The position numbers were made by a program, and so were the translations under genes. The notes under the pieces were generated by a model, which was not told the origin of the DNA, searched no databases, and saw nothing but the letters and a program-made list of their open reading frames with translations. From positions 1 to 64,000 of the forward strand of contig NZ_JANUBZ010000006.1 of assembly GCF_024808665.1 (NCBI RefSeq): a DNA stretch of 64,000 nt, in the 5' to 3' direction. Positions 32,214 through 60,918 of this stretch are shown here, one piece after another (the first letter of the stretch is position 1; each line of letters starts with the position of its first letter). The stretch is from Mucilaginibacter empetricola. Lineage in GTDB: Bacteria; Bacteroidota; Bacteroidia; Sphingobacteriales; Sphingobacteriaceae.

Positions 32214-33443
32214 CTAGTTCGCTGCCGGCTTCTGCCAAAAATATTGCGGGTTATTACTTGCATATTCTATCGCCCCTTTTCCTGTTTTTTTGGACTGATA
32301 AATTGTAGTGAAGCTTCCGGGATATAAATCAATATATTCTATAGGTGGTTTTTTATCATCCCTGGTTTCCAAATCCCAATCGCTTTTAACCGAACATTTT
32401 AGCCAGTAAAGATTTTTTGACATGTAGTGAAAATAATCTTGCTTGGTTTCTTTTGATTTGTTGTTCCAGTTGGCATCGTTGTTTAAATTCCATGGCTGGT
32501 CGCTAATCATACGTTGCCTAACCTCTTCAATATTTAACAAATTGCCTTTTTCATCACTAACGTAAGCGTTAAAGGTAGGATCCATCCAAATCCATTTGTT
32601 TAGTGTTTTTGACCATACTACTGTAATTACGTGGCAATCAAAATCGGCAGTGTCTTTGGGCATGCAGGTTACCAATCGGGCCTTAAACCCTTCGGCCTGA
32701 TAGGCGTCTTTTAATATGGTTGACATCATCCGGCAATTAACTCCCCGGTCGTCTTTTTTACAAACCGCTATTAAATCAATGGCATTTTTATTTGGAGGAT
32801 TGCCTGAGTTACCGTCATGCCGTACAACATTATGCGCCCAAAAAAGCAGGTTTTTAAATTTGCTGATTTCATCACCATTCCCGGCAACTGAATCCAGATT
32901 GAACTTTTGTTTAAAATTCACCAACTCCGGTGCTGAAGCCGATTGATAACTGAATACCGGCAAAGCAGGGTGTTGTTCAACATTATATGGCCCGGAATTT
33001 TTCAGAATATAAAGATAATCGCCCTTTTCTCTTATTTGCTGCACTATGGTTTTAAATTCCGCTTCGTTATGCAGACTAACCAGATCGCCATCGGCAATAA
33101 TAGAATTGTAATCAATAAACCCCGCGGCGAACGCTTTTTTTAGCCAATTTAAGGCATCTGTTTTTTGGCCATTAAGTGCAGTATAGCAGCCCAGGTTATA
33201 ATAAATGTTTATGGTATTACCCTGATAATTTTTCTGAATAACAGAAGACTGTTTGTGATAATTATTCAGCCAATCGTTTGACAGGTCAATTGCTTTGGTG
33301 TAATTTTTAGCCTGATAGGCATCTTCAATATTTTTATCGGCGGCTGTTACATAGCTGTTAAAATTTGCTGCCTCCTGGTTTTGTTGTGCATTAACAATCA
33401 GAGCTGATAAAGAGATAAAACATAGCAATAATATTTTTTTCAT
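32214..33443 (-). CDS. Secreted transglutaminase-like protein with TPR-like N-terminus
   Basis: A 409-residue exported protein with a signal peptide (1-20, ...LIVNAQ). Residues 30-115 hold TPR-like helices (YTKAIDLSNDWLNNYHKQ; NLGCYTALNGQKTDALNWLK). A transglutaminase-like core follows, with Cys237 (GVNCRMM), His271 (DCHVITVVW) and Asp288 (WIWMDPTF) in the correct order for a papain-like triad. It might be a peptidase or only a structural variant. It stands alone, with a TAnnTTTG box 56 bases upstream. Confidence 0.85.
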   Translation of the reverse strand: MKKILLLCFISLSALIVNAQQNQEAANFNSYVTAADKNIEDAYQAKNYTKAIDLSNDWLNNYHKQSSVIQKNYQGNTINIYYNLGCYTALNGQKTDALNWLKKAFAAGFIDYNSIIADGDLVSLHNEAEFKTIVQQIREKGDYLYILKNSGPYNVEQHPALPVFSYQSASAPELVNFKQKFNLDSVAGNGDEISKFKNLLFWAHNVVRHDGNSGNPPNKNAIDLIAVCKKDDRGVNCRMMSTILKDAYQAEGFKARLVTCMPKDTADFDCHVITVVWSKTLNKWIWMDPTFNAYVSDEKGNLLNIEEVRQRMISDQPWNLNNDANWNNKSKETKQDYFHYMSKNLYWLKCSVKSDWDLETRDDKKPPIEYIDLYPGSFTTIYQSKKTGKGAIEYASNNPQYFWQKPAAN

Positions 33444-33498
33444 GTGGGCTTAGGGTTTTTAGGTTGATATAATGAACATTGATTTTGTTCTATTATTC

Positions 33499-33506
33499 CA
33501 AATGTA
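33499..33506 (-). promoter_or_regulatory. Probable -7 box for the transglutaminase-like gene
   Basis: On the minus strand the sequence reads TACATTTG, an exact TAnnTTTG match, 56 bases before the ATG at 33443. No clear TTTG at -33 is visible. Confidence 0.42.
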
Positions 33507-33569
33507 ATAAATATCTTTTGTGGACTAAGCACTTCTGACATATTTCTATGTTGCAACAAACGTTAAGTT

Positions 33570-36248
33570 TTAAAACCCTTTTTTTCTTCTTATTCCGGGC
33601 TTTCGGGGGCTTCCGGCTTTAGACTTTTCGGACGGCAATACTTCATCAACATCATATTGACGGGCCATTTTAGCTATACGTTCTTCCAATGTTTCGGTGG
33701 TTAAGCGTTCCCGGCCCAGACTGTCAACCATTATCGGGAAGGCAAATGGAGTAGGCCTTTCAATGGTTTTTAAAATGATATTTTGTTTGATGATGCGCTG
33801 CAGGGCCATTCTTAAGCGGAATTCCTCCAGTTGGAAAGCCAGGGCTTCGTTGTAAGCCTGCCTTACCAATAAGTTGTCCGGCTCATATTCGCTAAACACT
33901 TCGAAAAGCAGGGAAGTAGATGCCTGCAAATGTTTATTCTTTACCGGCTGACCGGGATACCCCGTAAAAACCAGGCCCCCGATGTGGGCTATATCTCGGA
34001 AACGGCGCCGGGCCATTTCATTGGCGTTTAAACTATGCTGAATATCTTCCAACAGGCTATCGATCGAGAAAAAACTGGCATCTTCCAAAGCTTCTTCAAT
34101 AGGGATATCTTCATCAGCAAGTAGCTCGAACCCATAATCATTCATGGCAATGGAAAAACTGGCGGGTTTTATTTTGCTGATGCGATAAGCCAGCAGGGAG
34201 GCCATACCTTCATGAACCAACCTTCCCTCGAACGGATAAAACAGCAAATGATGCCCTTGTTGCGATTTAAACGACTCGATCAAAAATTCATGGCTCTGCG
34301 GCAAATGCGAAAGTCTGCTTTGTAACTCAAATAAGGGCTGTAGGGCAACAACTTCCTCGTCGTTGGCTGTACCGTGGGCAACTTCATCCAGCTTTACCCT
34401 AAACATGGCCGACAGCTGCGATGAAAGCGGCATCCTCCCGCCTGCCCAACTGGGGATCATTCCCTTTTTTGCGTTTGATTTTTTTACATAGGCGGTCATT
34501 TCCTTTATCCGCACAAATTCAAGACTCCGCCCGGCAAACCAAAAAGTATTTCCCGGTCTTAATCGGGATATAAAAGATTCTTCAATAGTGCCCAGGCTAC
34601 CACCGCTCAACCAACTTACACGAATACTCAGTTCACTGGTAATAGTGCCAATGCTCAGCCGGTGCCGCATAGCTACCCGGCGATTGTTTACCTTAAACAG
34701 GCCGTTCTCAACCTCAACCTTTAAAAATTCATCATATTGAGCAAGCGTTTTGCCGCCGGTGGTTATAAATTCAAGCAATTGGTTAAACTCGTTTCGTTTT
34801 AAATCGGCGAATGCAAATGTTGTTTTAACCTCTTCAAACAATTCATTGGCGGTAAAGCCGTCAGAAACGGCCAATGTTACCATGTACTGAATCAGCACAT
34901 CCATGGTTAACAATAAAGGATCGCGACTTTCAAAAATGCCATCTTTAATGGCTTGTTTCAATGCCGCTCCTTCCAGTAATTCCATGGAATGAGTAGGCAC
35001 AAAATATGCCCTTGAAACGGCACCCGGATGGTGCCCGCTTCGGCCAGCCCGCTGCATAAAACGGGCGACACCCTTGGGGCTGCCCACCTGCACTACCGAG
35101 TCAACCGGTCTGAAATCGACGCCCAAATCCAGACTTGAGGTACATACTACCACTTTCAGTGCCTCGGCATGTAGTGCCTGCTCTACCCAGTTGCGCAATT
35201 CGTTATCCAGCGAGCCGTGGTGCATGGCCATAATACCTGCATACTCGGGGTAGTTATTTAATATGGCATGATACCATATTTCTGATTGCGAACGGGTATT
35301 AGTAAATATAAGCGTGGTTACGCTTTTGGCCACAATTTCCATCACCTGTGGCAAAAGTTTCAGGCCGATATGACCTGCCCACGAATAGTTCTCAATATTT
35401 TCGGGAATGATAGATTTGATGAGTAACTTTTTCTCCAGATTGGCCCTTACCATCCTCACCTTTTCGGGCGGGAAATTGTTGCCCAGTAGTACTTCTGCCG
35501 CCTGCTCCAGGTTACCGATGGTTGCACTGATACCCCATATTTTTAGTTGGCAGTTTTCAGTTTGCAGTAGGCCGTCCTTTTTAGGTTGCAGTTTTCTGTT
35601 TGCAGTTTGCGATTCGGAATTACCGTCCACTGCCAACTGCTTACCGGGTACTGCCAACTGTTCATCTCCAACTGCCAACTGAAAACTGCCAACTGAACAA
35701 AGGCCCTTAAGCCGGGACAAGCCCAACTCAACCTGTACCCCGCGCTTGGTGCCCAGCAGTTCGTGCCATTCGTCAATAACTACTACTTGTAGATTTTGAA
35801 ACAGTTTGTAATATTCTTTTTGGGCCAGCATCAGATGCAGGCTTTCGGGGGTGGTGAGCAGTACTTCGGGTAGCTTTTTTTTGAGCGCCTGTTTTTCGGC
35901 GGCGGGCGTGTCGCCTGTGCGGGTGGCAATTTTCCATGGAAGGCCTAGTTCATCACAAACTTCCTGCATCGCTTTCTTGATATCGTTGGTTAGCGCCCTT
36001 AAGGGAGTTATCCAAAGCATTAACAGCCCATTGTTAGTTTTGGAAAGATAATTTTCGGGATGTTTATTAATGAAATCAGCTAAAAAAGGAAGAAACAAAG
36101 CAAATGTTTTGCCACTACCCGTTGGCGCATTCAGCAAGCCGGAATAACCACCCAGATAGGCATCTTCCATCTCCTGCTGAAAAGGGAATTGCTGCCAGTT
36201 TTTTTGCTTATACCACTGTCTTATAACTTGCTGCCCTTTTGTAACCAT
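33570..36248 (-). CDS. Lhr-type DEXH helicase (ligase-associated DNA damage response), with internal repeat insertion
   Basis: An 892-residue superfamily 2 helicase of the Lhr-core type. Walker A is APTGSGKT, motif II DEWH, motif III SAT, and the helicase C domain has SSLDLGVDFRPVD and QRAGRSGHHPG; a winged-helix and Lhr-specific region follow. Bacterial relatives are associated with LigD-like ligases, though no ligase or exonuclease gene is nearby. The ATG at 36248 is preferred to a TTG at 36263. Between DEWH and SAT lies an insertion of about 52 residues (35541-35696) built of QLAVGDEQLAVPGKQLAVDG-like repeats, not part of the helicase fold. Whether the protein remains active is unknown; the frame is intact. 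Confidence 0.92.
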   Translation of the reverse strand: MVTKGQQVIRQWYKQKNWQQFPFQQEMEDAYLGGYSGLLNAPTGSGKTFALFLPFLADFINKHPENYLSKTNNGLLMLWITPLRALTNDIKKAMQEVCDELGLPWKIATRTGDTPAAEKQALKKKLPEVLLTTPESLHLMLAQKEYYKLFQNLQVVVIDEWHELLGTKRGVQVELGLSRLKGLCSVGSFQLAVGDEQLAVPGKQLAVDGNSESQTANRKLQPKKDGLLQTENCQLKIWGISATIGNLEQAAEVLLGNNFPPEKVRMVRANLEKKLLIKSIIPENIENYSWAGHIGLKLLPQVMEIVAKSVTTLIFTNTRSQSEIWYHAILNNYPEYAGIMAMHHGSLDNELRNWVEQALHAEALKVVVCTSSLDLGVDFRPVDSVVQVGSPKGVARFMQRAGRSGHHPGAVSRAYFVPTHSMELLEGAALKQAIKDGIFESRDPLLLTMDVLIQYMVTLAVSDGFTANELFEEVKTTFAFADLKRNEFNQLLEFITTGGKTLAQYDEFLKVEVENGLFKVNNRRVAMRHRLSIGTITSELSIRVSWLSGGSLGTIEESFISRLRPGNTFWFAGRSLEFVRIKEMTAYVKKSNAKKGMIPSWAGGRMPLSSQLSAMFRVKLDEVAHGTANDEEVVALQPLFELQSRLSHLPQSHEFLIESFKSQQGHHLLFYPFEGRLVHEGMASLLAYRISKIKPASFSIAMNDYGFELLADEDIPIEEALEDASFFSIDSLLEDIQHSLNANEMARRRFRDIAHIGGLVFTGYPGQPVKNKHLQASTSLLFEVFSEYEPDNLLVRQAYNEALAFQLEEFRLRMALQRIIKQNIILKTIERPTPFAFPIMVDSLGRERLTTETLEERIAKMARQYDVDEVLPSEKSKAGSPRKPGIRRKKGF
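35541..35696. repeat. Intergenic-type repeat inserted in frame in the helicase gene
   Basis: The plus strand shows tandem variants of the words CAGTTTTCAG, TTTGCAGT and ACTGCCAACTG across 156 bases, a multiple of three. The same words occur between genes at 47978-48012, 48141-48172 and 60891-60918. In the helicase frame they read as QLAV, TENCQL and TANRKLQ units. It lies between conserved motifs II and III, where relatives usually have only a short loop. Confidence 0.85.
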
Positions 36249-36314
36249 GCCAATAATATACAATGTAAATTACAATATGTTAGGCAGGTTTTGAAATCTT
36301 GATTTTATAAGAAT

Positions 36315-36352
36315 AAAAAAGGTTCTGCCGGATAAACGACAGAACCCTTTTT
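36315..36352 (-). terminator. Intrinsic terminator of the M16 peptidase gene
   Basis: On the plus strand AAAAAAGGTTCTG (36315-36327) and CAGAACC (36340-36346) plus CTTTTT form a stem with a 12-base loop. On the minus strand it lies just after the M16 gene's stop at 36373 and ends in T-rich sequence. Confidence 0.78.
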
Positions 36353-36372
36353 CATGATCTTAATTTTTATAA

Positions 36373-39237
36373 TTATTTCTTTTCAGGAAGTAAAATCAAC
36401 TTAATCAAATCGGCGCCGCTTAAATATTTATTGGCGGCATCTTTTGTGCTTTGCTGGGTTACATTGCTCAAATTGCTTACGTGGTACAAAATGGCATCCG
36501 GGTTTTCCTGATTTTGCGCAGCTGCACCTAAGTAACCTGCCCAGAAAATATTTTCTTTAAGCTGCACCTGGGTCGAACGCGCTTCCTGGGCGGCAAATTT
36601 TTGGATATCAACTGCCAGTGCACCGTTTTGTTTGATGTTATTAATTTCTTCCATAGTGGCGGCAACCAGCTTATCAACATTGGCGGGTGCGCATTGGAAT
36701 GAAACGGTGAAAGTATAACGGCCCTCCGGTATTTTTTTGTAGCTGGCCCTTACACCGGGTGCATAAACTTCGCCTTCTTTTTCGCGCAATCTTTCATCCA
36801 GTTTTATTTGGATAATAGATTCCAAAGCATCCAGTTGCACGTTATTGGCTTCGTTATATTCATAGGCGCCATCAAATATTAAATCAACAGTGCTTTTATC
36901 GCCAATACCTTTATAAACTGTTTTGGTAATTTGCCCGGCAGGTGGATGGATGCCTAAGTTTTTAAAGGTTTCTTTACTATTGGTGGTCGGTAAGCTGCCT
37001 AAATAAGCCTCCAGGTAAGGTTTTATCCTGTCTACTGTAAAATTACCTACTATTACAAAGGTAAAGCCGCTTGCATCGGCAAAACGATTTTTAAAGAAGG
37101 TGTAAGCTTTGTCTAAACTGGCTGCATCCAATTGCTGCGGCGTTACAACCATTTCACGGAAATTGTGGTTACTCAAAGTGGCCGAAACAGTATCCTGGAA
37201 AACACTTCCCGGATCGAGACTGCGGTTAGTCAGCACCGATTTAGTTTGGGTGATGTTTGACTGCCAGATGTCGGCATCTTTACGCGGCTGCGTAAAGTAT
37301 AGATAAATAAGCTGAAGGGCCGATTCGAAATCTTTAGGTGCGCAATTGCCTGATATACCCTGGGCAACATCACTGATGTAAGGGGTGATGCTTACATTTT
37401 TACCGGCCAGCATTTTGTCGAGTTGTATCTGGGTAAAATCAGCTATACCGCTGGCTGGTATAATGCTCCCCGACAAATCAGCGGAAGTGAAATCCTGATC
37501 GCTGGTTAATGAAGTACCGCCAAAGCTGTATCCATTTATAAGGATCTGATCGTTTTTAAACTCGGTTGGCTTTAATATTACTTTTATGCCGTTCGATAAA
37601 GTAAGGGTAGTTGTTAAAATAGAACTGTCTGTTTGTGTGCTGGTAACTTTACCCGGCGCTGAAGGCAATTTTTCCATCAAAGGTTTATCGCTTCTGTTAT
37701 CAACATAAGCCGTTAAATTTTTACCTCCTTCGGCAATCCAATCTAATATTACTTTTTCGTTGGGCAGCTTGTCCTTGTCCTTATCCGGCGCTTCTACCAC
37801 AACAACCCTGTTTTGATCGCTGATGAATTTGCCCGCCATGGCATTTATTTCGGCAAGCGTAATTTTACCAATGTTATTTACATAAAAATTGTACTCATAT
37901 TCCAGTCCGGGAATTGCCTCGCCGGTTAAGAAGTTTTGCTGATATTCATTTACAAAAGTTACTGATTTTGTTTTATCGCGCTCTTTGTACGCATTGTCAA
38001 TGGCTAATAAGGCATTTTGTTTGGCTCTTTCCAATTCAGTAAGGGTAAAGCCAAATATGCGGGCACGCTCCGTTTCGGCAACGGCTGCCTTAACAGCAAT
38101 TTGCAGTTCGCCAGGCTCCTTCGCTACCACTACGGTTGTAAATGCATTTTGTCTTCCGATGAAACTGCCATAGCTCGATTGGCCGTATAAGAACGGCGGG
38201 TTTGGTTTTTGAACCAATTCGCCCAAACGGGCATTGAGCATTTGGTTGAACAATTCAACACGCATACTCTGCATAAAATCAGTTGTAGTTTTTAATACCG
38301 TACCGGGGTGTTTTACAATTATTTCGGCTACGGTGTAAGGAAATTCTTTGTCGGTTGCAATTTTTACTGCGGTTCCGGGTGTTGGTGGTACTGTATAGGT
38401 TGTCCTTGGTTTTTCAGGAGTTGGATTGCTTAATAATGAGAAATATTCCCTTATCAGTTTGGCAACATACTTGGGATCAAAATCGCCCACTACAATTACC
38501 GCTTCCAGATCCGGACGGTACCAATCGTGATAAAAACTTTTAATAGTTTCGGGTTTAAAGGTTTTTATAATATCCTCTTTACCAATTGGCAAACGCAGGG
38601 CATACCTGGAATTGTTTAATAATACCGGCAATGTTTGCAGACTCAGTCTTTCCTGGGCATTTTTACCACGAAGGCGGGCTTCCTCTAAAACAACGCCACG
38701 TTCATCGTCAATTTCTTTTGGGTCGAAGGATTGGTAGCCTGCCCAGTTGGCCAGTATGCTAAATCCTTTTTCAAATACCGCAGCGCTATCGGTAGGCAAA
38801 GGCAATTGATATACCGTTTCGTCAAATGAAGTATAAGCGTTCAGATCCGCACCAAACTTTACGCCCGATTTTTGCAGATAATCTACCAGTTGATTTTTTG
38901 GGAAATCGCGTGTGCCGTTAAAGGCCATGTGCTCGGTAAAGTGTGCAAGTCCCTGCTGGTCGTCAGCTTCCAATACAGAACCAGCTTTACATATCAGGTA
39001 TAATTCAGCCCTGTTTTTAGGTTCGGTATTTCTGCGGATATAAACCGTTAAGCCGTTTGGAAGTGTTCCGGTAATTACATCCGGATCTTGCGGTAATTTA
39101 TCGGCTTTTGACTGGTCTGTTGCTGCTGGTTTAGGAGCTGTTGATGCTGCGGGTTTCTTTTTAACCTGGGCAAATGCGCCGTCTGTTACGGTAACAAGGG
39201 CCAAAGCCGCTATGCAAACTTTGTAGTTTAATTTCAT
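36373..39237 (-). CDS. M16 family zinc metallopeptidase (insulinase-like)
   Basis: A 954-residue exported peptidase with two M16 domains. The start at 39237 gives a signal peptide (MKLNYKVCIAALALVTVT... cut near GAFAQ); a longer frame to 39273 lacks this logic. The inverted zinc motif HFTEH is at residues 99-103, with the later Glu in DERGVVLEEARLRGKN. The second half (from about 530) is the non-catalytic M16 domain. A Lys/Ala/Pro-rich linker follows the signal peptide. The product is likely periplasmic. It ends at a terminator and appears to be a single-gene unit. Confidence 0.93.
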   Translation of the reverse strand: MKLNYKVCIAALALVTVTDGAFAQVKKKPAASTAPKPAATDQSKADKLPQDPDVITGTLPNGLTVYIRRNTEPKNRAELYLICKAGSVLEADDQQGLAHFTEHMAFNGTRDFPKNQLVDYLQKSGVKFGADLNAYTSFDETVYQLPLPTDSAAVFEKGFSILANWAGYQSFDPKEIDDERGVVLEEARLRGKNAQERLSLQTLPVLLNNSRYALRLPIGKEDIIKTFKPETIKSFYHDWYRPDLEAVIVVGDFDPKYVAKLIREYFSLLSNPTPEKPRTTYTVPPTPGTAVKIATDKEFPYTVAEIIVKHPGTVLKTTTDFMQSMRVELFNQMLNARLGELVQKPNPPFLYGQSSYGSFIGRQNAFTTVVVAKEPGELQIAVKAAVAETERARIFGFTLTELERAKQNALLAIDNAYKERDKTKSVTFVNEYQQNFLTGEAIPGLEYEYNFYVNNIGKITLAEINAMAGKFISDQNRVVVVEAPDKDKDKLPNEKVILDWIAEGGKNLTAYVDNRSDKPLMEKLPSAPGKVTSTQTDSSILTTTLTLSNGIKVILKPTEFKNDQILINGYSFGGTSLTSDQDFTSADLSGSIIPASGIADFTQIQLDKMLAGKNVSITPYISDVAQGISGNCAPKDFESALQLIYLYFTQPRKDADIWQSNITQTKSVLTNRSLDPGSVFQDTVSATLSNHNFREMVVTPQQLDAASLDKAYTFFKNRFADASGFTFVIVGNFTVDRIKPYLEAYLGSLPTTNSKETFKNLGIHPPAGQITKTVYKGIGDKSTVDLIFDGAYEYNEANNVQLDALESIIQIKLDERLREKEGEVYAPGVRASYKKIPEGRYTFTVSFQCAPANVDKLVAATMEEINNIKQNGALAVDIQKFAAQEARSTQVQLKENIFWAGYLGAAAQNQENPDAILYHVSNLSNVTQQSTKDAANKYLSGADLIKLILLPEKK

Positions 39238-39335
39238 TTTTCTTTTAGGGAATATCTCTTTGCTAAGATGCAAAACGGATACCTGAGTTACAAATTATAT
39301 TATTAGGAAGTTTATATACAGCGATATAAACAAAA

Positions 39336-39455
39336 GCGTCTTTGCGATGAGGAACGAAGAAGCAATCTATAAGCTATACAGAGCAGAAAGAAAAGTATAG
39401 AACCTTTGTAATTTCTCTGTACAGTTTAGAGATTGCTTCGTACCTCGCAATGACG
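39336..39455. repeat. Palindromic intergenic repeat, family A (copy 2)
   Basis: GCGATGAGGAACGAAGAAGC and AATCTATAAGC on the left are mirrored by GATTGCTTCGTACCTCGC on the right, with an additional CTATACAGAG/CTCTGTACAG pair inside. The full length is about 120 bases and it can fold as one long hairpin. It is the best-preserved copy of the element at 79-194 and lies between the M16 and nagB genes. Confidence 0.75.
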
Positions 39456-39469
39456 TGGGGTGTTATGAT

Positions 39470-41392
39470 TTAGTAATGGAATCTCACAAAAGCCTCCATG
39501 GCTTCATATTCCGCCATGCCGAGTTTATCGTAGCTTTTAGCTGTCTCCCTTGTCCGATCCTCTGCTCTCACCCAAAACTCTCTGGCATCATCACCCGGGA
39601 AAACCGGCCTGTCCTTTTGGCTCTGGTGTTTAAAGATGGCGTTTCGTTTACGGATCACTTCCTGCGGTGACAGCGGTACGGCCATTTCTATTTCGTAAAT
39701 ATTAAACTCCTGCCATGCCCCACGGTACATCCATACCCAGCAATCTTTTACCCAATCTTCGGTTTCTTTCAGTCGTTTTAAGGCGGCTATAATGATATTG
39801 AAACATACCAGGTGGGTACCGTTAGGATCGGCAAAGTCGCCGGCGGCAAATACCTGTTGTGGTTTTACTTTTTGCAGCAGTTCTATTGTTAAACGGATAT
39901 CTTCTTCACCTGCGGTGTTCTTTTTGATCTTACCGGTTTCATAAAACGGTAAAGCCATAAAGTGGATATGGTCATCCTGTAAACCTGCATAGCGTGCTCC
40001 CGAAATGGCTTCTGTTTTGCGGATAAATCCTTTTACATCCCTTATCTCCTTGGTATCTACCTGGTTTGGTTTTTTGGTGGGGATAAAGGCTCGCATATCT
40101 TCATAAATACTTTTCAGCTTGCTGTTGTCTTCGCCTATACTTTGGCTAAAGTCTATCGCAAATTCTACGAAACGTAATACATCATCATCCCAAACCGCCG
40201 TATTGCCTGATGTTTGATAAGCTACATGCACATCATGCCCCTGGTCAACCAGGCGAATAAATGTACCGCCCATAGAGATCACATCATCATCCGGGTGTGG
40301 GGAGAATATAATTGCCCGTTTTTGTGCTGGTTGTGCTCTTTCTGGCCTTTGGCTATCATCGGCATTGGGTTTTCCTCCCGGCCAACCGGTGATGGTATGT
40401 TGTAACTGGTTAAATATATCAATATTGATATTGTATACCGGCCCCTGTTCTACCGCCAGCTGGGCCATGCCATGGTTATTGTAATCTTCTTCGGTAAGTT
40501 TCAGTATCGGTTTGTTTACCGTTTCTGCTAACCATAATACGGCTTTCTTTTTCAGTGTATTTTCCCATACACAGTCTTTTACCAGCCATGGGGTATCAAA
40601 ACGGGTTAAGTAACTTGCAGCTGGTTCATCCAGCACAAATTCTACATGGTCAGATAATTGCAGGTAGGTGGCTGGTACTTCACCGGAAATCTCTCCTTCT
40701 ACTGCTTTTTTAATTATGCGGGCTTTTTTCAGGCTCCAGGCCATCAGGATGATTTCCCTTGCTTTGAAAATGGTACCGATACCCATAGTAATAGCCTTGG
40801 TGGGTACGTTTTGTTTACCACCAAAATCGCGTGAAGCATCACTGCGGGTCAGGTCATCAAGGGTTACCAGTCTGGTGCCTGAATTGGGTGCCGAGCCCGG
40901 CTCGTTAAAACCGATGTGGCCGGTACGGCCTATCCCCAGTATCTGCAGATCCAGTCCGCCCAGTTTAGTGATCTTTTGCTCATAGTCCAAACAAAAAGCA
41001 GCAACCGCTTCAGTGGTAGACAGCGTTCCGTCCGGGATATGCACATTAGCTTTATCAATATCTATATGGCTGAACAGGTTTTCGTTCATGAACGTTACAT
41101 AGCTCTGTGCGGCTGTGGGCTGCATAGGGTAGTACTCGTCCAGGTTAAAGGTTATTACATTTTTAAAGCTTAGCCCTTCTTCTTTATGTTTGCGTACCAG
41201 TTCGGCATAAACAGCTATGGGGGTTACGCCGGTGGCTAAACCTAATACGGTTTTTTCGCCTTTGGCTCCTTTGCTTTTTATCAGCTGCGCTATCCGTTCG
41301 GCTACGGCTATCGAAGCTGTTTGCTGGTTGCTGTATACCGTTACCGGTAATTTCTCATATCGGGTCTCTTCTAGTAAATTTAATCGCGCCAT
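39470..41392 (-). CDS. nagB: Glucosamine-6-phosphate deaminase fused to a PIG-L-type deacetylase domain
   Basis: A 640-residue two-domain protein. Residues 1-290 are NagB, converting glucosamine-6-P to fructose-6-P and ammonia, with LATGVTPIAVYAELV, NLDEYY (83-88) and GIGRTGHIGFNEP (153-165). Residues 355-600 are a PIG-L/LmbE-like zinc deacetylase, with HPDDD at 366-370 in place of the usual HPDDE and a later GTHLVCFN. The two might deacetylate and deaminate sugar substrates in sequence, but the second domain's substrate is unknown. This fusion occurs in other Bacteroidota. It is divergent from anmK, consistent with amino-sugar and peptidoglycan recycling. Confidence 0.93.
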   Translation of the reverse strand: MARLNLLEETRYEKLPVTVYSNQQTASIAVAERIAQLIKSKGAKGEKTVLGLATGVTPIAVYAELVRKHKEEGLSFKNVITFNLDEYYPMQPTAAQSYVTFMNENLFSHIDIDKANVHIPDGTLSTTEAVAAFCLDYEQKITKLGGLDLQILGIGRTGHIGFNEPGSAPNSGTRLVTLDDLTRSDASRDFGGKQNVPTKAITMGIGTIFKAREIILMAWSLKKARIIKKAVEGEISGEVPATYLQLSDHVEFVLDEPAASYLTRFDTPWLVKDCVWENTLKKKAVLWLAETVNKPILKLTEEDYNNHGMAQLAVEQGPVYNINIDIFNQLQHTITGWPGGKPNADDSQRPERAQPAQKRAIIFSPHPDDDVISMGGTFIRLVDQGHDVHVAYQTSGNTAVWDDDVLRFVEFAIDFSQSIGEDNSKLKSIYEDMRAFIPTKKPNQVDTKEIRDVKGFIRKTEAISGARYAGLQDDHIHFMALPFYETGKIKKNTAGEEDIRLTIELLQKVKPQQVFAAGDFADPNGTHLVCFNIIIAALKRLKETEDWVKDCWVWMYRGAWQEFNIYEIEMAVPLSPQEVIRKRNAIFKHQSQKDRPVFPGDDAREFWVRAEDRTRETAKSYDKLGMAEYEAMEAFVRFHY

Positions 41393-41475
41393 GTTCTAGG
41401 TTTTTTTGAAGCGGTAAGTCGTTAATAATTACGACTTAAACTATCGCTTCGCACTTCTATATTAGTTGATGAAAG

Positions 41476-41483
41476 CAAATATA
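41476..41483 (-). promoter_or_regulatory. Probable -7 box for nagB
   Basis: The minus strand reads TATATTTG, fitting TAnnTTTG, 84 bases before the nagB ATG. It lies in the 172-base divergent space shared with anmK. No convincing -33 was seen. Confidence 0.4.
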
Positions 41484-41564
41484 TCAGATATGTTAGATAG
41501 TGTGACTATTAATTTAACTTTTGTACTTCCATTGGCAAATGGTTAATTTGAGCACCTGTTAGCT

Positions 41565-42749
41565 ATGAACCAAAATCTGCAAAAACTTTTCAGCATCGCC
41601 CAAAAAAAAGAAAAATTTGGTATTGGCTTAATGTCGGGCACATCACTGGATGGGCTGGACATTGCCCTGTGTCGTTTTACCGGCAGCGGATTAAAAACAC
41701 AGTTTAGCCTGATTAAATTTATTACCACACCTTACCAGGAACCGTTTAAAAAAGAGGTACAATCTATATTTGCCCGCCGGGATGCCGATCTGGAAAAAGT
41801 TTGCTTGTTGAATGCTTTTATCGGCAATTTTCATGCTGAACTAGTGTTGCAGGCGCTTGCCGAATGGGGCATTCAACCTGAAGAGGTTGATTTTATTGCC
41901 AGTCACGGACAAACCATTTATCATGCTCCTAAAAGATTGCACAAAAAAGCAGGCTACCCCAATGCTACTTTACAAATAGGGGATGGCGACCATGTGGCCG
42001 TAAAAACCGGGATATTAACCATCAGTGATTTCAGACAAAAACATATTGCCGCAGGCGGCGAAGGTGCACCCTTAGCTTTGTATGGCGATGTTTTGCTGGG
42101 CAGCAAAGCCGAAGAAAACAGAATATTGCTAAACATAGGCGGCATTGCTAATCTGACCTTTTTGCCTGCTGATGGTAATGCGGACAAAATATTATGTACA
42201 GATATAGGCCCGGGCAATACTATGATTGACGCGGCCTGCCGCAGGTATTTTAATTTGCCTTATGATGAAGACTCAAAAATTGCATTTGCAGGCAATGTAA
42301 ATGAGGCTTTATTAAATGTACTGCTTGCCGGTGCTTTTTTTAAGGAACAAGCACCAAAAACAACCGGCCCAGAGTTGTTTAATTTGAATTATCTGGATGA
42401 AGCATTGAAACAATCGGGGACTACGAATTTAAGCGCCGAAGATATTATATGTACCCTAAGTGCATTCACCGCTCAATCAATAGCCGGGTTTATTTTGCAG
42501 CATATAAAGGCTGATGATATCAGGGTGTTTACCAGCGGGGGCGGGGCAAGGAATATTTATATTATTAATTATTTGAAAAAGGCTTTACCTAATACTATTA
42601 TCCAAAATACCAGCGCACTGGGTATCGACCCAGATGCTAAGGAAGCCATTCTTTTTGCATTGTTGGGCAATGAAGCTTTATGCGGCGAATCTTTAAAAAT
42701 TGGAAGCAACCCGGCGGTATTAATGGGTAAGTTCAGTTTCCCGGTTTAA
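41565..42749 (+). CDS. anmK: Anhydro-N-acetylmuramic acid kinase
   Basis: A 394-residue kinase that opens and phosphorylates 1,6-anhydro-MurNAc to MurNAc-6-phosphate during recycling of cell-wall fragments. The ATP motif GLMSGTSLDGLDIAL (21-35) is characteristic, followed by ASHGQTIYHAP, LNIGGIANLTFLP, DIGPGNTMIDAA and TSGGGARN. Length is a little above the usual 370. It is divergent from the nagB fusion. MurQ, the next enzyme, is not in the window. Confidence 0.95.
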   Translation: MNQNLQKLFSIAQKKEKFGIGLMSGTSLDGLDIALCRFTGSGLKTQFSLIKFITTPYQEPFKKEVQSIFARRDADLEKVCLLNAFIGNFHAELVLQALAEWGIQPEEVDFIASHGQTIYHAPKRLHKKAGYPNATLQIGDGDHVAVKTGILTISDFRQKHIAAGGEGAPLALYGDVLLGSKAEENRILLNIGGIANLTFLPADGNADKILCTDIGPGNTMIDAACRRYFNLPYDEDSKIAFAGNVNEALLNVLLAGAFFKEQAPKTTGPELFNLNYLDEALKQSGTTNLSAEDIICTLSAFTAQSIAGFILQHIKADDIRVFTSGGGARNIYIINYLKKALPNTIIQNTSALGIDPDAKEAILFALLGNEALCGESLKIGSNPAVLMGKFSFPV

Positions 42750-42763
42750 AATATTGCCTTACT

Positions 42764-44083
42764 TTAATTCACCAGCCGTCCATTTAAATCAATAGTACGG
42801 GCAAAAGGGTTTAAAAAGCGGTTAGCCAAAACGGCAAACTCCCGGCGGGTTATAGGCTGCTTTAAATCAAAATCGGTATTAAATTTATATTGACTCTTCC
42901 ATGCCTTCTGTATGTTTTTTTGTAATAGCTGTGGGTCGGTTAGCGTATAATCGCTAATAAAAGATAAGGTATTGCCAATGGTGAACATTTTGCCAGGTTT
43001 TTCGTTGTTGAACCATAAAAAAGCACGGGTATAAATTTCTGAAAAAATGGGTTTAATTTCATCTGTCAGAACTGCAGAGTCGGGCATAAAGACAAACTGT
43101 GCGGGCGCTGTTGTTTGCTGTAATTTCCCATTCAACAAACCTGTTGCGCTCACCTGCTGTATGGCTCTCCAATTCACGTCTTTTGGGTTGATATCCGTAA
43201 ACGGCAAAATATATCCTTTATAATCGAGCAGTTCGCCTTGTATAATGCGCACTTTTAAGTTTTGGGTGGTAGTTTTAAAAAAGGCACAATAAGCGGCTAT
43301 CGTACCGGCACCTTGTCCCAATTCCAGCTGTGCAGGTAGCGATTGAATGTTGTCGCCCGGTGGTAATGCTTTGTCAATAACCAGCAGGTTTTCCAAATCG
43401 CGCAACAAAATAGCATTCATCGGGATGCTGTAGAATGGATAAGGAGGGTAAGTTATATTGCTGTTTTCGATTCCTGGCAAAACACTCCCCGTGGCAATTG
43501 CGGTGCGATATGCATTGGGATTAGCGTTTTTAAATGCGGTATCAAATTTTGCTCCTGCTTTTAAAGCTATGGCGCCATCTGTAGTGGCATCTATCACCAC
43601 GCGGGTTTTTATGGTGATTATTTTTTCGTTTTGCCTTACAGATACCGCCCAGTAATCATTGTCTTTTTTTATGTTGATAAAGGTAGTTTGCTTATACAGG
43701 CTCAGATTTTTTAGCGTATCTGTCATTTTTTGTAAAACGGCTATTGCAGTATCTGCTTCAAAAGTTAATGCAGCATATTGAGATGTATCATGCCCGGGTT
43801 TTTTATAGTACGATTGCTGCACCAGTTTCCTGAACTCGCCCCATATGCCTGACGGGATATTGCGGCCATTTTCAATAGTATAGGTTGCTGTTGGGGTGCT
43901 AGTTGTATTGATCGCAAGCTTCTCAAAAACCCATATTGTTTTTACTTTGCTGCGGGCGCATTGTACCGACGCGCTTACAGCACCGGGGTCATTGCCAATT
44001 ACTAATACGTCGGTTTTAACAGTTTGGGCATATAAAAAAGTGCAATTGAAAGCCAAAAACAATGCGAACAGGTTTTTTATCAT
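42764..44083 (-). CDS. Exported FAD-dependent oxidoreductase
   Basis: A 439-residue protein with a signal peptide (1-19, ...NCTFLYAQ) and an N-terminal dinucleotide fold, VLVIGNDPGAVSASVQCARS, where the usual GxGxxG is altered to GNDPGA. The block RVVIDATTDGAIALKAGAKF is typical of the FAD-dependent oxidoreductase family PF12831. The C-terminal region has an SLH-like stretch (QPITRREFAVLANRFLNPFA). Substrate unknown. It converges with anmK, leaving 14 bases between stops. Confidence 0.82.
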   Translation of the reverse strand: MIKNLFALFLAFNCTFLYAQTVKTDVLVIGNDPGAVSASVQCARSKVKTIWVFEKLAINTTSTPTATYTIENGRNIPSGIWGEFRKLVQQSYYKKPGHDTSQYAALTFEADTAIAVLQKMTDTLKNLSLYKQTTFINIKKDNDYWAVSVRQNEKIITIKTRVVIDATTDGAIALKAGAKFDTAFKNANPNAYRTAIATGSVLPGIENSNITYPPYPFYSIPMNAILLRDLENLLVIDKALPPGDNIQSLPAQLELGQGAGTIAAYCAFFKTTTQNLKVRIIQGELLDYKGYILPFTDINPKDVNWRAIQQVSATGLLNGKLQQTTAPAQFVFMPDSAVLTDEIKPIFSEIYTRAFLWFNNEKPGKMFTIGNTLSFISDYTLTDPQLLQKNIQKAWKSQYKFNTDFDLKQPITRREFAVLANRFLNPFARTIDLNGRLVN

Positions 44084-44170
44084 TAAGATGTAAATAAGGA
44101 TAGAACGCTAAAATAGGTCAAAACTTTGTAACGCATAAAATTAATCCCTAATTTAACTTTTTTTATGATT

Positions 44171-44695
44171 ATGACAGACGAGCAAATGCAATACCCTGTT
44201 GGGCAGTTTAAGTCGCCGGTTTCGTATACTACTGAGGATATCCGTAAATGGACTGCCACCATCCGCGAGCTCCCTGGCAAATTGCGCTATGCCATCATCA
44301 CCCTAAATGAAAAACAGCTGGATACCCCTTACCGTACCGGTGGATGGACATTGCGCCAGGTAGTTCATCATGTGGCCGATAGCCATATGAATTGTATAAC
44401 CCGTTTTAAACTGGCTCTAACCGAAGAAAACCCAACTATAAAACCCTACGAGGAAGCCGATTGGGCGTTGCTGCTGGATTACAGATTGCCTGTAGAACCA
44501 TCGTTAAAAATGCTGGAAGGCATACACCTGCGTTGGGTGGCCTTGCTGGAAGGTTTAACGGAAGAACAATGGAACCGCACTTTTGTACATCCTGCTTCGG
44601 GCGAAACAATGCAGTTAAAGAAAGCACTGGCATTGTACGCCTGGCACAGCAAGCATCATTTGGCGCATGTGACAGAGGCAGTAAAGAAATTTTAG
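44171..44695 (+). CDS. DinB/YfiT-type metal-dependent transferase
   Basis: A 174-residue four-helix protein starting MTDEQMQYPVGQFKSP, the usual opening of the YfiT family. Metal ligands are in VVHHVADSHMN and AWHSKHHLAHV, three His residues. YfiT/BstA proteins transfer bacillithiol or act as putative hydrolases, and some Bacteroidota make bacillithiol, which fits the bacilliredoxin gene at 60299. An ATG six bases upstream (44165) is equally readable. The gene is divergent from the flavoprotein. Confidence 0.87.
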   Translation: MTDEQMQYPVGQFKSPVSYTTEDIRKWTATIRELPGKLRYAIITLNEKQLDTPYRTGGWTLRQVVHHVADSHMNCITRFKLALTEENPTIKPYEEADWALLLDYRLPVEPSLKMLEGIHLRWVALLEGLTEEQWNRTFVHPASGETMQLKKALALYAWHSKHHLAHVTEAVKKF

Positions 44696-44710
44696 CAGGA
44701 TAGAGTAAAT

Positions 44711-45673
44711 TTATTCTCCTTTAAACTTTAATCCGATCCCGGCCCGTGCACTATCCAGCATAGCGATCATTTGACGTGAAATTTCGTGACTGATGATTGG
44801 GCTTTCGGTTGCACCACTGTTAATCAAATCGCAAAAGTGGCGGGTTTCGTAATTCAGCCCCCCGGCGGTGAATGGTTCATCCAGCTCCACGGTGCGACCA
44901 TCAAGATAACTGATGGTTGCTTTGGCTGGATTCCACCAGTTTTTATGGATGGTGATATGGCCCAGCGTACCGCAGATTAGGGCATCGCCTTTGCCATGCA
45001 AATCAAAACCGCAATAGAGTTGCGCGTAGCCTTTTTCGTGTTCTGATTGAAAGATGGCAAACATATCTATCCCGGTTTCGCCGAAACGGCCCAGGGTTTG
45101 AACTTGCTTGGTGGCACCGAGCCATTCAACAGCTAAATAAGCTTCGTAAATCCCAATACCCATAATGCTGCCGCCAACCAGCTCGTGACTGTAATTAGGA
45201 TGCCCCGGTGGACAATCAGCGACAGCTGATCCGGCACGGACATAGCCAATATCTCCAATCGGATCAGTTAGTACATATTCTTTTAAACGGCGGTATAGTG
45301 GGAAGAACGGAGGTTTCATCCCTTCCATAAAAAGTAGTCCGGTTGATTTGGCTACTGTTAATATTTTGTCGAGATCATTCAGATTAATGCCCGCAGGTTT
45401 TTCGCAAAGCACGTGTTTGCCGGCATTTAAAGCAGCAATACTATATTCGGCATGACTATCGGGTAGGGTAGCAATATAAACGGCGTCAATATCGCTGGCT
45501 AATAATTCGTCAACAGAAGAACAGGCCTTGCCACCATATTGTTCAACAAAGGTATTTACAGTTTCGGCCCTGCGCGACCATGATGCTGCAAGTTTGGTAT
45601 CAGGAACATCCTGCAATCCCTGCATAAACCGATGGGCAATGCGCCCGCAACCGATAATACCCCAACGAATCAT
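44711..45673 (-). CDS. Gfo/Idh/MocA family oxidoreductase
   Basis: A 320-residue NAD(P)-dependent oxidoreductase. The N-terminal Rossmann motif is GIIGCGRIAHRFMQGLQ and the catalytic block HVLCEKPAGINLNDLD contains the family's EKP. The C-terminal domain carries EPFTAGGLNYETRHF. Members oxidise sugars, inositols or trans-dihydrodiols; the particular substrate is not evident. It converges with the DinB gene and is preceded by a word-repeat. Confidence 0.88.
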   Translation of the reverse strand: MIRWGIIGCGRIAHRFMQGLQDVPDTKLAASWSRRAETVNTFVEQYGGKACSSVDELLASDIDAVYIATLPDSHAEYSIAALNAGKHVLCEKPAGINLNDLDKILTVAKSTGLLFMEGMKPPFFPLYRRLKEYVLTDPIGDIGYVRAGSAVADCPPGHPNYSHELVGGSIMGIGIYEAYLAVEWLGATKQVQTLGRFGETGIDMFAIFQSEHEKGYAQLYCGFDLHGKGDALICGTLGHITIHKNWWNPAKATISYLDGRTVELDEPFTAGGLNYETRHFCDLINSGATESPIISHEISRQMIAMLDSARAGIGLKFKGE

Positions 45674-45680
45674 TTGAGTT

Positions 45681-45752
45681 TGTAGTCTTAAGTTCTGAGT
45701 CTTGAGTCAATAATCTCACACTTTGAACTTAAGACTACCGACTCAAGACTTA
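45681..45752. repeat. Inverted word-repeat (AGTCTTAAGT type)
   Basis: GTAGTCTTAAGTTCTGAGTC and TTGAGTC on the left are mirrored by AACTTAAGACTACCGACTCAAGACT on the right. It can form a long hairpin of about 70 bases between the Gfo/Idh and lipoprotein genes. Confidence 0.7.
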
Positions 45753-45760
45753 TAATTTTA

Positions 45761-46837
45761 CTATTGATACTGTATATAAATGGGGTGCGGTTTGTACATC
45801 TTTAATACTTCCTCGGGGGTAAGCATGTGATGCGGCGGCAACCATGAGTCATTTTTATAAAACAATTTGAAGCCGGTAAACTGTACCGGGTCGTGATAAA
45901 TATAATCGCGATAGGTACCGGTCTTTAATTCGGGCGGGCCGAAACCGTCCATATCCATCACAAACTGGATTTCGGGGTGAAGTTTAATGTTTTGATAATT
46001 GGTTAGCATTTTACGTGTAAAACGGTGCACAATGAAAATTTTGGGCGGCAGGTGATACTTCCTTACCTCGTTAGCTAAGTAAGCCGACACATAATTAACT
46101 TCAGTTGCGTCATAACTGCCTATTTTTTTGCCGGGATGAATGCCATCATGCATGGCAAATTCGGGATCTATACCGCAATGAACGTTAGGCATTTGCCAAT
46201 ATTTTTCTAACTTGGGCAATTCCGCGCGGATATTGCTCAACGCTACCTGTATATCCAGGAAAAGTATGGCATGAGCCCTTTTAGCCAGTCTTACTGCACT
46301 ATCTATTTTTTTTGCCGGCATGCGGTTGATATACATATTGTCCTTACCGGGAAAACCGGCTGCCACTACTGCTATATAATGCAGCGCAGGTTGCACAGGT
46401 GTTTGTGGGTCAGCTTTCTCCCAATGCTTTACTTCTCCGCGTAGTTTGGCCAGCATTTCGTCAGGCGGCAGCTCGCCCAGAATGCCCATCTTTTTAGCAG
46501 ACAAGTTGCCATAAAAAGCAATTACCCTTTTGAAAGGCAAAATAGCGCCCGGCAATGGATATGGTGCATTTTTAACAGGCCATTTGCCGGTGGTATCGCC
46601 ATTGGCAAGGCGTTTCATCAATGAATCATAAAGTTTTTTATCCAGCGGCGGGTAGGTTACAGGCGTTGCGGCAACAGTATCTGCTTTTTTGGCGGTATCT
46701 TTTTTTGCAGTGTCCTTTTTAGCTGTGTCTTTTGTGGTGCTGGTACTTGCAGCGCTGCTGTTTTTTTGACCGCAGTCAGATAAAAGCAGTACGGCTGATA
46801 ATAATACCGCAGGCAGGATAACGTTCTTTAATTTCAT
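45761..46837 (-). CDS. Hypothetical lipoprotein
   Basis: A 358-residue protein with a lipoprotein signal (LLSAVLLLSDCGQKNSS, Cys22). A low-complexity linker repeats AKKDT three times (about 35-53). The globular part (about 85-358) includes FKRVIAFYGN, LHYIAVVAAGFPG, ILFLDIQVAL and a downstream KFIVHRF-like strand (PPKIFIVHRF), a succession of hydrophobic strands and charged loops that might be a TIM-like barrel. I do not recognise a family. It is monocistronic in appearance, with a 253-base upstream spacer that shows nothing distinctive. Confidence 0.75.
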   Translation of the reverse strand: MKLKNVILPAVLLSAVLLLSDCGQKNSSAASTSTTKDTAKKDTAKKDTAKKADTVAATPVTYPPLDKKLYDSLMKRLANGDTTGKWPVKNAPYPLPGAILPFKRVIAFYGNLSAKKMGILGELPPDEMLAKLRGEVKHWEKADPQTPVQPALHYIAVVAAGFPGKDNMYINRMPAKKIDSAVRLAKRAHAILFLDIQVALSNIRAELPKLEKYWQMPNVHCGIDPEFAMHDGIHPGKKIGSYDATEVNYVSAYLANEVRKYHLPPKIFIVHRFTRKMLTNYQNIKLHPEIQFVMDMDGFGPPELKTGTYRDYIYHDPVQFTGFKLFYKNDSWLPPHHMLTPEEVLKMYKPHPIYIQYQ

Positions 46838-47090
46838 TTTTTACTTAAATGTTTTGTAGCGGGCTGAGCTAAATAATATTTTTCTGCTCCTTAATACGTT
46901 TTAATTTATCAATAGTTATTCCCCTGATTACTGAACATACTTATAGCGTTGTGTTTGCCGCTTAGGATATTCAAAATGTGTAGGGGGATATTTATTTAGC
47001 GCCAAAGATAGTAATATCGATATACAAACTATGCTTTAATAATATGATTAACAATGATTTTTTAACAGATGAAATTCAGTGGTTAATCAG

Positions 47091-47975
47091 CTATTTTGTT
47101 TTATAGAACTTGCCAAAAACACCCAGTGGTAATTTTGATCCGGCAGTGGCCTGTAAATAAAGTTCGCCGGTTTCCAGGTTTTGCACCTGAGGATAAGCAC
47201 TTTTAATCAGGTTTTCGATAATTACCGATGAAAAGCCCAGTGAATAGGTATTCAGAATCAGGAAATGCTCATCCGGGTCTAACAATTGCATTACATCGCC
47301 CATCATTTCGTTAATATTGTCTTCCAGTTTCCATTTTTCACCATTGGGGCCATGTCCATAAGCAGGAGGATCCAAGATAATACCGTTGTATTTTTTGCCG
47401 CGTTTAAGTTCGCGTTTTACAAACTTTAGCGCGTCTTCAACCACCCAGCGGATATCGGTTAGCCCGGATAATTCCTGGTTTTCGTTGGCCCAGGTAACTA
47501 CTTGTTTAATAGAATCAACGTGTGTGGTATCGGCTCCCGCAGCCCTGGCAATTAATGATGCGCCGCCGGTATAGGCAAACAGGTTAAGTACTTTAGGCTC
47601 GGGGGTTTTAAATCTTTTTATGTTTTGGGTGATATAATCCCAGTTAACAGCCTGCTCCGGAAAAATGCCAAGATGTTTAAATGAAGTTAATGCCAGGCGG
47701 AATTTAATAGCCGCTTCGGGGTTTTTATATTCAATATGCCAGCGATCAGGAGTAGCAGGGTTTTTCTTTAACCATTCGCCCGATGTGGCCGAACGACCTT
47801 TAAATTTAATATGATGCAGCTTTTGCCATTCAGCGGGACTTAACGCCTTGCTCCAAACAGCCTGTGGTTCGGGGCGTATCAGTATCACATTGCCAAAACG
47901 TTCCAGCTTTTCAAAGTCGCCGCAATCAATCAGTTCGTAATCTTTCCAGTGCGTAGGTGTGAGAAGTTGGATCAT
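47091..47975 (-). CDS. RlmI-like class I SAM-dependent methyltransferase
   Basis: A 294-residue methyltransferase. The SAM-binding motif is VLNLFAYTGGASLIARAAGA and the catalytic region is ILDPPAYGHGPNGEKWKLED, which match the RlmI/RlmK type acting on 23S rRNA. The N-terminal PUA domain of RlmI is absent, so the protein is short. The C-terminus is an LGVFGKFYKTK tail. Substrate specificity is unproven. It is downstream of the ABC genes, separated by a repeat-bearing spacer. Confidence 0.87.
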   Translation of the reverse strand: MIQLLTPTHWKDYELIDCGDFEKLERFGNVILIRPEPQAVWSKALSPAEWQKLHHIKFKGRSATSGEWLKKNPATPDRWHIEYKNPEAAIKFRLALTSFKHLGIFPEQAVNWDYITQNIKRFKTPEPKVLNLFAYTGGASLIARAAGADTTHVDSIKQVVTWANENQELSGLTDIRWVVEDALKFVKRELKRGKKYNGIILDPPAYGHGPNGEKWKLEDNINEMMGDVMQLLDPDEHFLILNTYSLGFSSVIIENLIKSAYPQVQNLETGELYLQATAGSKLPLGVFGKFYKTK

Positions 47976-47977
47976 TT

Positions 47978-48172
47978 TTCAGTGTGCAGTTTTCAGTATG
48001 CAGTTGACAGTACCTGCATTGCTGAAATTTTCAGCAAATATAGTTATTAACTACAAAAGTATTTTTGTTAACGAATGGTGATTGTAGCGGCTTTTTCCAT
48101 AGCGATGGGTTTAAAACCCGTCGCTATATTTGTGTTGAGGGTAACTGCAAACTGCCTACTGTAAACTCACAG
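47978..48172. repeat. Word-repeats and a hairpin in the spacer between methyltransferase and ABC genes
   Basis: The words TGCAGTTTTCAG and TGCAGTTGACAG (47978-48012) and ACTGCAAACTGCCTACTG (48144-48161) are the same type as the sequence inserted in the helicase gene. Between them, ATAGCGATGGGTTT (48099-48112) and AAACCCGTCGCTAT (48114-48127) form a near-perfect hairpin with a one-base loop in the annotated pairing. Confidence 0.65.
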
Positions 48173-60803: not shown

Positions 60804-60889
60804 GCCTCACCCTGCCCTCTCCAAAGGAGAGGGTTCAAAGATTTTTTTTCAAAGTCCCTCTCCTTTGGAGATGGATTTAAGGTGAGGCA
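60804..60889. repeat. Intergenic repeat, family B (compact copy)
   Basis: CCTCACCCTGCCCTCTCC (60805-60822) with AAAGGAGAGGGTTCAAAG is followed by CTCTCCTTTGGAGATGG and TTTAAGGTGAGGC, so the whole 86 bases are nearly palindromic. It is the simplest of the three family B copies. A CAGTTGGCAG-type word (GCCAACTGAAAACT) follows at 60891-60918. Confidence 0.7.
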
Positions 60890-60890
60890 A

Positions 60891-60918
60891 AACTGCTACT
60901 GCCAACTGAAAACTCCCC
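60891..60918. repeat. Short word-repeat (CTGCCAACTG type)
   Basis: AACTGCTACTGCCAACTGAA followed by AACT reproduces the word family found in the helicase insertion (35541-35696) and at 47978-48172. Confidence 0.55.

Follow-up and report, generated by a model that had tools for sequence, protein, structure and literature searches.

The window, meaning the whole 64,000-nt stretch of DNA analyzed here, has its closest named records in Mucilaginibacter and contains on the minus strand a gene for a ligase-associated DNA damage response DEXH-box helicase. The encoded protein matches NCBIfam TIGR04121 at 1085.5 bits, above the curated cutoff of 850, and so belongs to that family, and the open reading frame also contains the Pfam domains WH_Lhr (Lhr winged helix) and DEAD_assoc; the "Lhr-type" label given in the first-pass annotation of this DNA is right at the family level, TIGR04121 being the precise family. 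The listed start codon is TTG, and an in-frame ATG lies at 36248, from which the coordinates of the DEWH and SAT motifs were reckoned. Between these motifs, which we take to be helicase motifs II and III, lies a stop-free insert of heptad words bordered by the conserved codons RLK (upstream) and IWGISAT (downstream). An in-frame, stop-free repeat segment of 156 bases and 52 residues had been described between DEWH and SAT in the first-pass annotation; the segment is there, and its size was essentially right, the borders found here giving 165 nt. The features of the gene are as follows.

33570..36263, minus strand: host gene, ligase-associated DNA damage response DEXH-box helicase, TIGR04121 (open reading frame list, profile matches)
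35763..35774, minus strand: DEWH motif codons, upstream of the insert (sequence; invariant columns D159-H162)
35541..35705, minus strand: in-frame heptad-word insert of 165 nt, equal to 55 codons (sequence, orthologue comparison)
35668..35697, minus strand: 5' arm of the palindrome, with the coding-strand words CAGTTGG CAGTTTT CAGTTGG CAGTTGG (repeat search)
35542..35571, minus strand: 3' arm of the palindrome, with reverse-complement words (repeat search)
35520..35528, minus strand: SAT motif codons, downstream of the insert (sequence; invariant columns S241-T243)

The insert is an imperfect palindrome, in which CAGTTNN words run along the coding strand through the first half and are reverse-complemented in the second; the arms at 35542-35571 and 35668-35697 are 90% complementary over 30 nt. 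This palindromic arrangement, like the different words found at the same site in orthologues (see below), goes beyond what had been noted earlier. The period-7 self-match of the insert is 0.54, compared with 0.25 on average and 0.31 at most in 2,200 same-size windows from the remaining gene, and when the 64 kb was scanned in 165-nt windows every 15 nt, the strongest period-7 stretch was the helicase insert. Its fold z is -4.8 as RNA and -5.0 as DNA, with none of 200 shuffles equally stable.

Matches to the helicase were found in 40 of the 41 genomes of a genus sample, some of them partial, and 30 loci were fetched, including that of the window; a GTDB sample supplied the best 80 of at least 592 loci. 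The segment from DEWH to SAT was recovered from 109 of these 110 loci (all but L123), and 102 distinct rows were kept. Nearly all of the fetched Mucilaginibacter orthologues have an insert at the identical codon position, made up of different words, a result that speaks against a single recent capture. In Mucilaginibacter and its near relatives (L041-L125), the distance between RLK and IWG is at least 55 nt in 69 of the 77 rows and 30 to 45 nt in the remaining 8, with a total range of 30 to 621 nt. The distant rows (L126-L150) have 24 nt or less at the site in 22 cases out of 25 and at least 55 nt in 2. Insert lengths are multiples of 3 in all of the 77 nearer and 25 distant rows, and no empty site at the helicase loop was found in a close relative. 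That nearly all of the congeners fetched have an insert at this site could point to an ancient peptide domain of the helicase family, and the first-pass annotation had proposed that a similar segment in orthologues across the family would indicate this. The segment is indeed present across the genus; however, an ancient domain is very improbable, because some sister species have unrelated sequences there, most of the distant rows lack the insert, and the loop is predicted to be disordered.

The inserts were compared further in a folding set of 67 distinct sequences of 55 to 320 nt, 65 of which came from L041-L125. Period 7 was found at a z of at least 3 in 61 inserts and a fold z of -2 or below in 43; the other 24 fall short of the latter value, so that the hairpin is not universal. 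The word families at the loop are CAGTTNN, AGTCNNN, and the GGTTC type, with rarer AAAAGC words and with GTGAATC words in a distant metagenome-assembled genome, and an alternative filling of the loop is a complete DUF559 nuclease domain together with a GC palindrome. Class labels given by a simple motif count of our own, in which "other" is a mixed bag, divide the 77 nearer rows into B (24), A (20), other (20), C (7), DUF559 (3), and none (3). The order of heptads matches between the two arms only weakly beyond the complementarity of the words themselves (z of -2 or below in 11 of 67 inserts; within the lowest 5 of 100 shuffles in 14 of 67), and for that reason copying of one arm from the other is not strongly supported.

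A stop codon in the reading frame was found in 1 of 68 inserts, compared with 61 and 62 of the 68 for the other two forward frames; the sole exception (L103) belongs to a metagenome-assembled genome. The avoidance of stops in the reading frame alone argues that the insert is very probably translated. It also speaks against translational bypassing, in which the ribosome would skip the palindrome and leave it absent from the protein; the relevant passage of PMC6649704 speaks of bypassed elements of palindromic form in a yeast mitochondrion, but for the helicase loop this explanation is barely credible. In the AlphaFold model, which has a mean pLDDT of 76.5, the loop residues 186-233 have a pLDDT below 50 and are predicted to be disordered, lying between a helix (168-185) and a strand (236-241). 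Apart from the N terminus, no other site with insertions of more than 12 residues was found in the helicase among the 102 orthologues. In 131 pairs of orthologous open reading frames from the stretches fetched of G000 and G023, word-like indels, 3 of the 5 indels of at least 8 residues, were confined to the helicase gene, and no word-like indels were found in 117 such pairs from G031 and G013. The repeat had been called "domesticated or trapped" in the first-pass annotation; repeat-family DNA is in fact kept in frame in a conserved gene, but nothing indicates domestication, which is without support because the loop is predicted to be disordered, varies in length from 30 to 621 nt, and has the frame alone in common among orthologues.

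The earlier suggestion that such elements move or expand fits the comparison between species, in which the insert turns over. On a FastTree phylogeny of the insert-free helicase (82 rows), the six labels require at least 35 changes, and A, B, and C alone require 20; well-supported branches force at least 13 changes for A and at least 13 for B. Shuffled labels gave a mean of 47.7 changes, with 0 of 200 shuffles as low as 35; this clustering of class on the tree means that inheritance also matters. In the 13 pairs with flanking DNA identity of at least 0.85 the class differs 5 times, and in the 6 pairs above 0.90 it never differs; class differs even between sisters with 87 to 89% identical flanking DNA.

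These switches could be imports if the classes were old alleles of one ancient insert and the locus underwent homologous recombination between species, a possible though doubtful alternative. In line with it, the classes are few and have prefixes in common, as seen in L041 and L046, which belong to different clades and have the first 34 nt of the insert in common. Class was also associated with flanking sequence in 946 A/B pairs, in a test that removed overall similarity and did not fully control for relatedness. The association was clear for the first 15 nt upstream alone (permutation p, 0.0005) and borderline for the first 15 nt downstream (p, 0.05), and the other flank windows had none; confinement of the signal to the nearest upstream codons favors replacement at tight borders, and the absence of association beyond those 15 nt weighs against recombination of the locus. 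Four sister pairs with an A/B switch have identities of 0.63 to 0.77 and then 0.70 to 0.83 in the two 30-nt windows closest to the insert on its upstream side, below most windows further out. Similarly, five switched near pairs have identities of 0.85 at 16 to 30 nt upstream and 0.87 at 16 to 30 nt downstream, compared with 0.94 and 0.96 in 11 same-class pairs. Recombination gains from these lower windows, but the switched near pairs are few, and short imports or border codons belonging to the array would either suffice to explain the drop. Recombination is further countered by the pair L050/L116, in which flank similarity is undiminished up to the border.

Words of the insert are also found elsewhere in the window. 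With no more than one mismatch, CAGTTNNCAGTT has 25 matches in the window compared with 3.8 expected, a number reached by 0 of 100 shuffles. The claim in the first-pass annotation that the same word-repeat lies between genes is borne out at 47980-48161 and 60897-60915, and the intergenic elements of the window are listed here.

47976..48166, no strand assigned: intergenic copy with a CAGTTNN arm at either edge of a spacer that separates two open reading frames, its words lying within 47980-48161 (word and repeat searches)
60897..60915, no strand assigned: short intergenic CAGTTNN stretch adjoining the end of the open reading frame at 60919 (word and repeat searches)
60815..60874, no strand assigned: intergenic GC palindrome CCCTCTCC..GGAGAGGG (repeat search)

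The genome to which the window belongs has 50 word matches with up to one mismatch, which we grouped into about 25 places, and 6 matches to the reversed pattern. CAGTTNN-type word hairpins fill both spacers flanking a tRNA-Gly gene (L023, 1499-1572 and 1647-1732), and CAGTTNN words also occur in a spacer between two open reading frames (L028, 1488-1573) that are presumably ribosomal protein genes. The best-scoring second match of the insert in its own genome covers 57 nt at 85%, and the longest listed covers 101 nt at 74%, among the 20 of 52 candidates that were scored. Across the 41 genomes of the genus sample, matches to the insert were found in 27 and AGTC words in 35, the control for AGTC giving no matches in most genomes, though it had 41 in G020 and 18 in G034. 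Taken alone, the exact three-word CAGTT pattern has little weight as a test, since it matches 21 of 41 genomes, has 9 matches against 6 for the reversed control in G000, and in several genomes scores the same as its control. The idea that a single genome-wide word lies behind the word in the helicase was rejected because G000 has CAGTT and AGTC words together and contig C6 has many different words. That contig contains 19 period-7 segments, compared with 17 segments at lag 9 and 1 to 9 at other short lags; 8 of the 19 are inside open reading frames, and 3 of these 8 are the helicase insert. G016:C17 and G040:C1 and C9 contain long arrays of perfect AGTCATT heptads, which differ from the degenerate hairpins.

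A candidate for a second in-frame insert, the CAGTTNN words in the hisS gene of the same genome (L008), was rejected because HisS of relatives has CPLQTA or a similar sequence of equal length at those positions. The HisS proteins of six relatives (L181-L183 and L185-L187) contain an extra variable stretch between LIFKVLNSGD and EKALRYDL, in which no heptads were seen by eye.

Changes by whole words were found both in the helicase loop and between genes. Among 14 same-label pairs, insert length is equal in 7 and differs by 21 nt, equivalent to three heptads or seven codons, in 2 (L058/L113 and L046/L076); the other 5 differ by 3, 9, 9, 9, and 156 nt. An intergenic array differs between G031 and G013 by the insertion or deletion of one 7-nt unit, and at two spacers compared by eye between these genomes (5606204 and 5680223), the words of G013 are swapped for other sequence at the same place, one of the two replacements consisting of units of about 8 nt. 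In the 140-kb comparison of G031:C30 with G013:C1, where aligned DNA is 92 to 95% identical, differing hairpin-like sequences, such as GTCATTGCGAGG-type elements, were seen by eye at matching spacers. Purely local slippage, with words arising and expanding in place and no copying between sites, would account for the unit-length changes of 7 and 21 nt, for the fact that none of the matches scored is a good second copy of full length, and for the many different words at different spacers of contig C6. It is nevertheless unlikely, since the same word families are found at unlinked sites and across species, including in a loop of leucyl-tRNA synthetase (LeuRS), and since point changes could hardly bring about a complete A/B switch between sisters.

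The hairpin could instead be a selected nucleic acid element, an mRNA or DNA structure acting on the helicase gene while the identity of its words drifts. Hairpin potential across unrelated words is consistent with this, as is the position of the arms at the edges of intergenic spacers in the examples seen. A closely related trio (L047/L048/L083) provides further support, each pair having no silent change and 3 replacement changes in the 45 codons of the insert, compared with 55 to 73 silent changes per 400 codons in the flanks, although its three pairs are not independent; this lack of silent changes hints at constraint at the nucleotide level rather than neutrality. The opposite was seen in L050/L081, with 5 silent and 32 replacement changes in the insert; the insert of L082/L099 has no change whatever, and L055/L100 does not have the pattern of the trio. 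Most of the distant orthologues lack an insert altogether, 24 of the 67 inserts have no clear hairpin, and a search of Rfam returned no match at the gathering score for 33000-49000 of the window, which together make a selected structure quite unlikely.

The best explanation is probably that the insert belongs to a dispersed, nonautonomous, hairpin-forming repeat of degenerate heptads, present as translated and largely neutral DNA in one permissive disordered loop. Slippage by whole heptads would let the arms grow and shrink, and template switching inside the hairpin may maintain the complementarity of the arms. Replacement of a whole hairpin could occur by ectopic copying or conversion from the dispersed hairpins or by loss followed by reinsertion, a mechanism that we infer. 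Purifying selection would remove insertions that shift the frame or that fall in less tolerant places.

Several known repeat systems have features in common with the insert. The P6b region of the Nostoc tRNA-Leu(UAA) intron contains heptanucleotide stem-loops of Class I (TDNGATT) and Class II (NNTGAGT), in which replacement of the whole region recurs off the phylogeny and, according to the passages of PMC4476775 on trnL, recombination was undetected. Like P6b as described there, the helicase loop has a stem-loop at a fixed site with degenerate 7-nt repeats on both sides of the stem and replacement of classes at one site off the phylogeny, some clustering on the tree remaining. In contrast, P6b as portrayed in that source lies in a cyanobacterial group I intron and has two classes, whereas the helicase loop is part of a protein-coding gene of Bacteroidota, is constrained by frame, and holds several classes as well as DUF559 inserts. 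Rickettsia palindromic elements (RPE; Ogata et al. 2000, 2002) are presented in the sections of PMC10969869 and PMC6649704 that treat them as in-frame palindromic repeats in protein-coding genes, with families of about 150 bp that have a conserved peptide and occur in many genes. Compared with that description, the RPE sequences themselves not having been aligned, the helicase insert is likewise a palindromic repeat of about 100 to 150 bp (z of about -5 in the window and -2 or below in 43 of 67 inserts) in frame within a protein-coding gene, but it has no conserved family sequence or peptide, classes and peptides differing between sisters. RPE are spread over many genes in those accounts. Here, only the helicase carried word-like indels in the 131 G000/G023 pairs and no gene did in the 117 G031/G013 pairs, though word arrays are also present in LeuRS loops of some species. 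By the features tested, the helicase insert is a member of neither the RPE nor the Nostoc P6b repeats.

REP elements, the partners of Y1 (RAYT) transposases, are short dispersed palindromes. The repeats described here have no fixed short core, unlike REP elements, and no mobilizing enzyme was found; a Y1 transposase in this role was rejected, any exact CAGTT or AGTC word pair being present at 1 of 16 Y1 loci in the 4 genomes searched. TAACTGA and other heptamer repeats, which are long simple sequence repeats (PMC4679880, citing Mrazek 2007), are similarly dispersed and mostly intergenic, and are also present in five Bacteroidetes. Those repeats, however, are almost only direct repeats of one exact word, and the portions of PMC4679880 devoted to TAACTGA-type heptamers do not mention class switching at a fixed, in-frame host site. 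The BrickBuilt MITE of Porphyromonas gingivalis is another Bacteroidota repeat with tandem units and inverted ends but is characterized in the relevant part of PMC4596501 as having 23-nt units and leader and tail ends and as always intergenic.

The helicase loop is a coding-sequence counterpart to the unexplained class switching of the Nostoc heptanucleotide stem-loops, in which a reading frame makes selection visible. Short repeat elements seem to use an ordinary gene as a place to land or be exchanged, and because the loop has been refilled in nearly every species examined, the spread and replacement of short palindromic repeats with no known enzyme become testable by strain comparison; Mucilaginibacter is a large genus with many cultured members. 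Judging from the range of lengths, a repair helicase seems able to accommodate anything between a few and about 200 additional residues beside its ATPase motifs. For annotators, the peptides derived from such inserts are not domains. In the open-access literature, the top matches described neither heptad hairpins nor DUF559 inserts lying in frame in Bacteroidota, subscription journals being mostly outside this search and absence thus unproven.

The editing loop of LeuRS, compared by eye in 11 distinct sequences from 12 genomes (L277-L288), is partly alike. Hairpins of ATTTCGG heptads fill it in G020 and G014; G040 has AGTCAAG words, G023 a few CACTAAT-like words, and G000 and G027 GC palindromes, the other five being without such sequences. 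In a second LeuRS loop, G000 and G023 have DUF559, whereas G026 has AGTCAGG words. As judged by eye, the LeuRS loops may thus be a second hotspot like the helicase loop in some species.

DUF559 had 99 matches in 38 of the 41 genomes, by our own sum. Among 37 DUF559 loci, 7 are fusions with methylmalonyl-CoA mutase, 2 are in LeuRS, 2 are in the helicase, and 11 are joined to HisF; of the rest, 8 had no host match and 7 lacked the motif searched for. The nuclease domains are in frame in the mutase, LeuRS, and the helicase and are joined to the N terminus of HisF. In the helicase, DUF559 occupies the very same loop as the heptads (L065, which is the gene of L268, and L116, L120, and L325), and a mutase site without DUF559 is present in G023 and G014 (L302 and L303). 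A search for plasmid records resembling the first part of a helicase with DUF559 gave no match. Loops of conserved Bacteroidota proteins (the helicase, LeuRS, and possibly others) might be docking sites at which heptad arrays and palindrome-bracketed DUF559 nuclease genes displace each other in frame, with a DUF559-type nuclease perhaps cutting the DNA, much as a homing element does, and so driving the exchange; this is offered tentatively, as an unlikely reading. The junctions of the DUF559 inserts have GC palindromes by eye (L267, L275, L268, L325, and others), and the intergenic GC palindrome at 60815..60874 of the window resembles, also by eye, those that bracket DUF559 inserts elsewhere.
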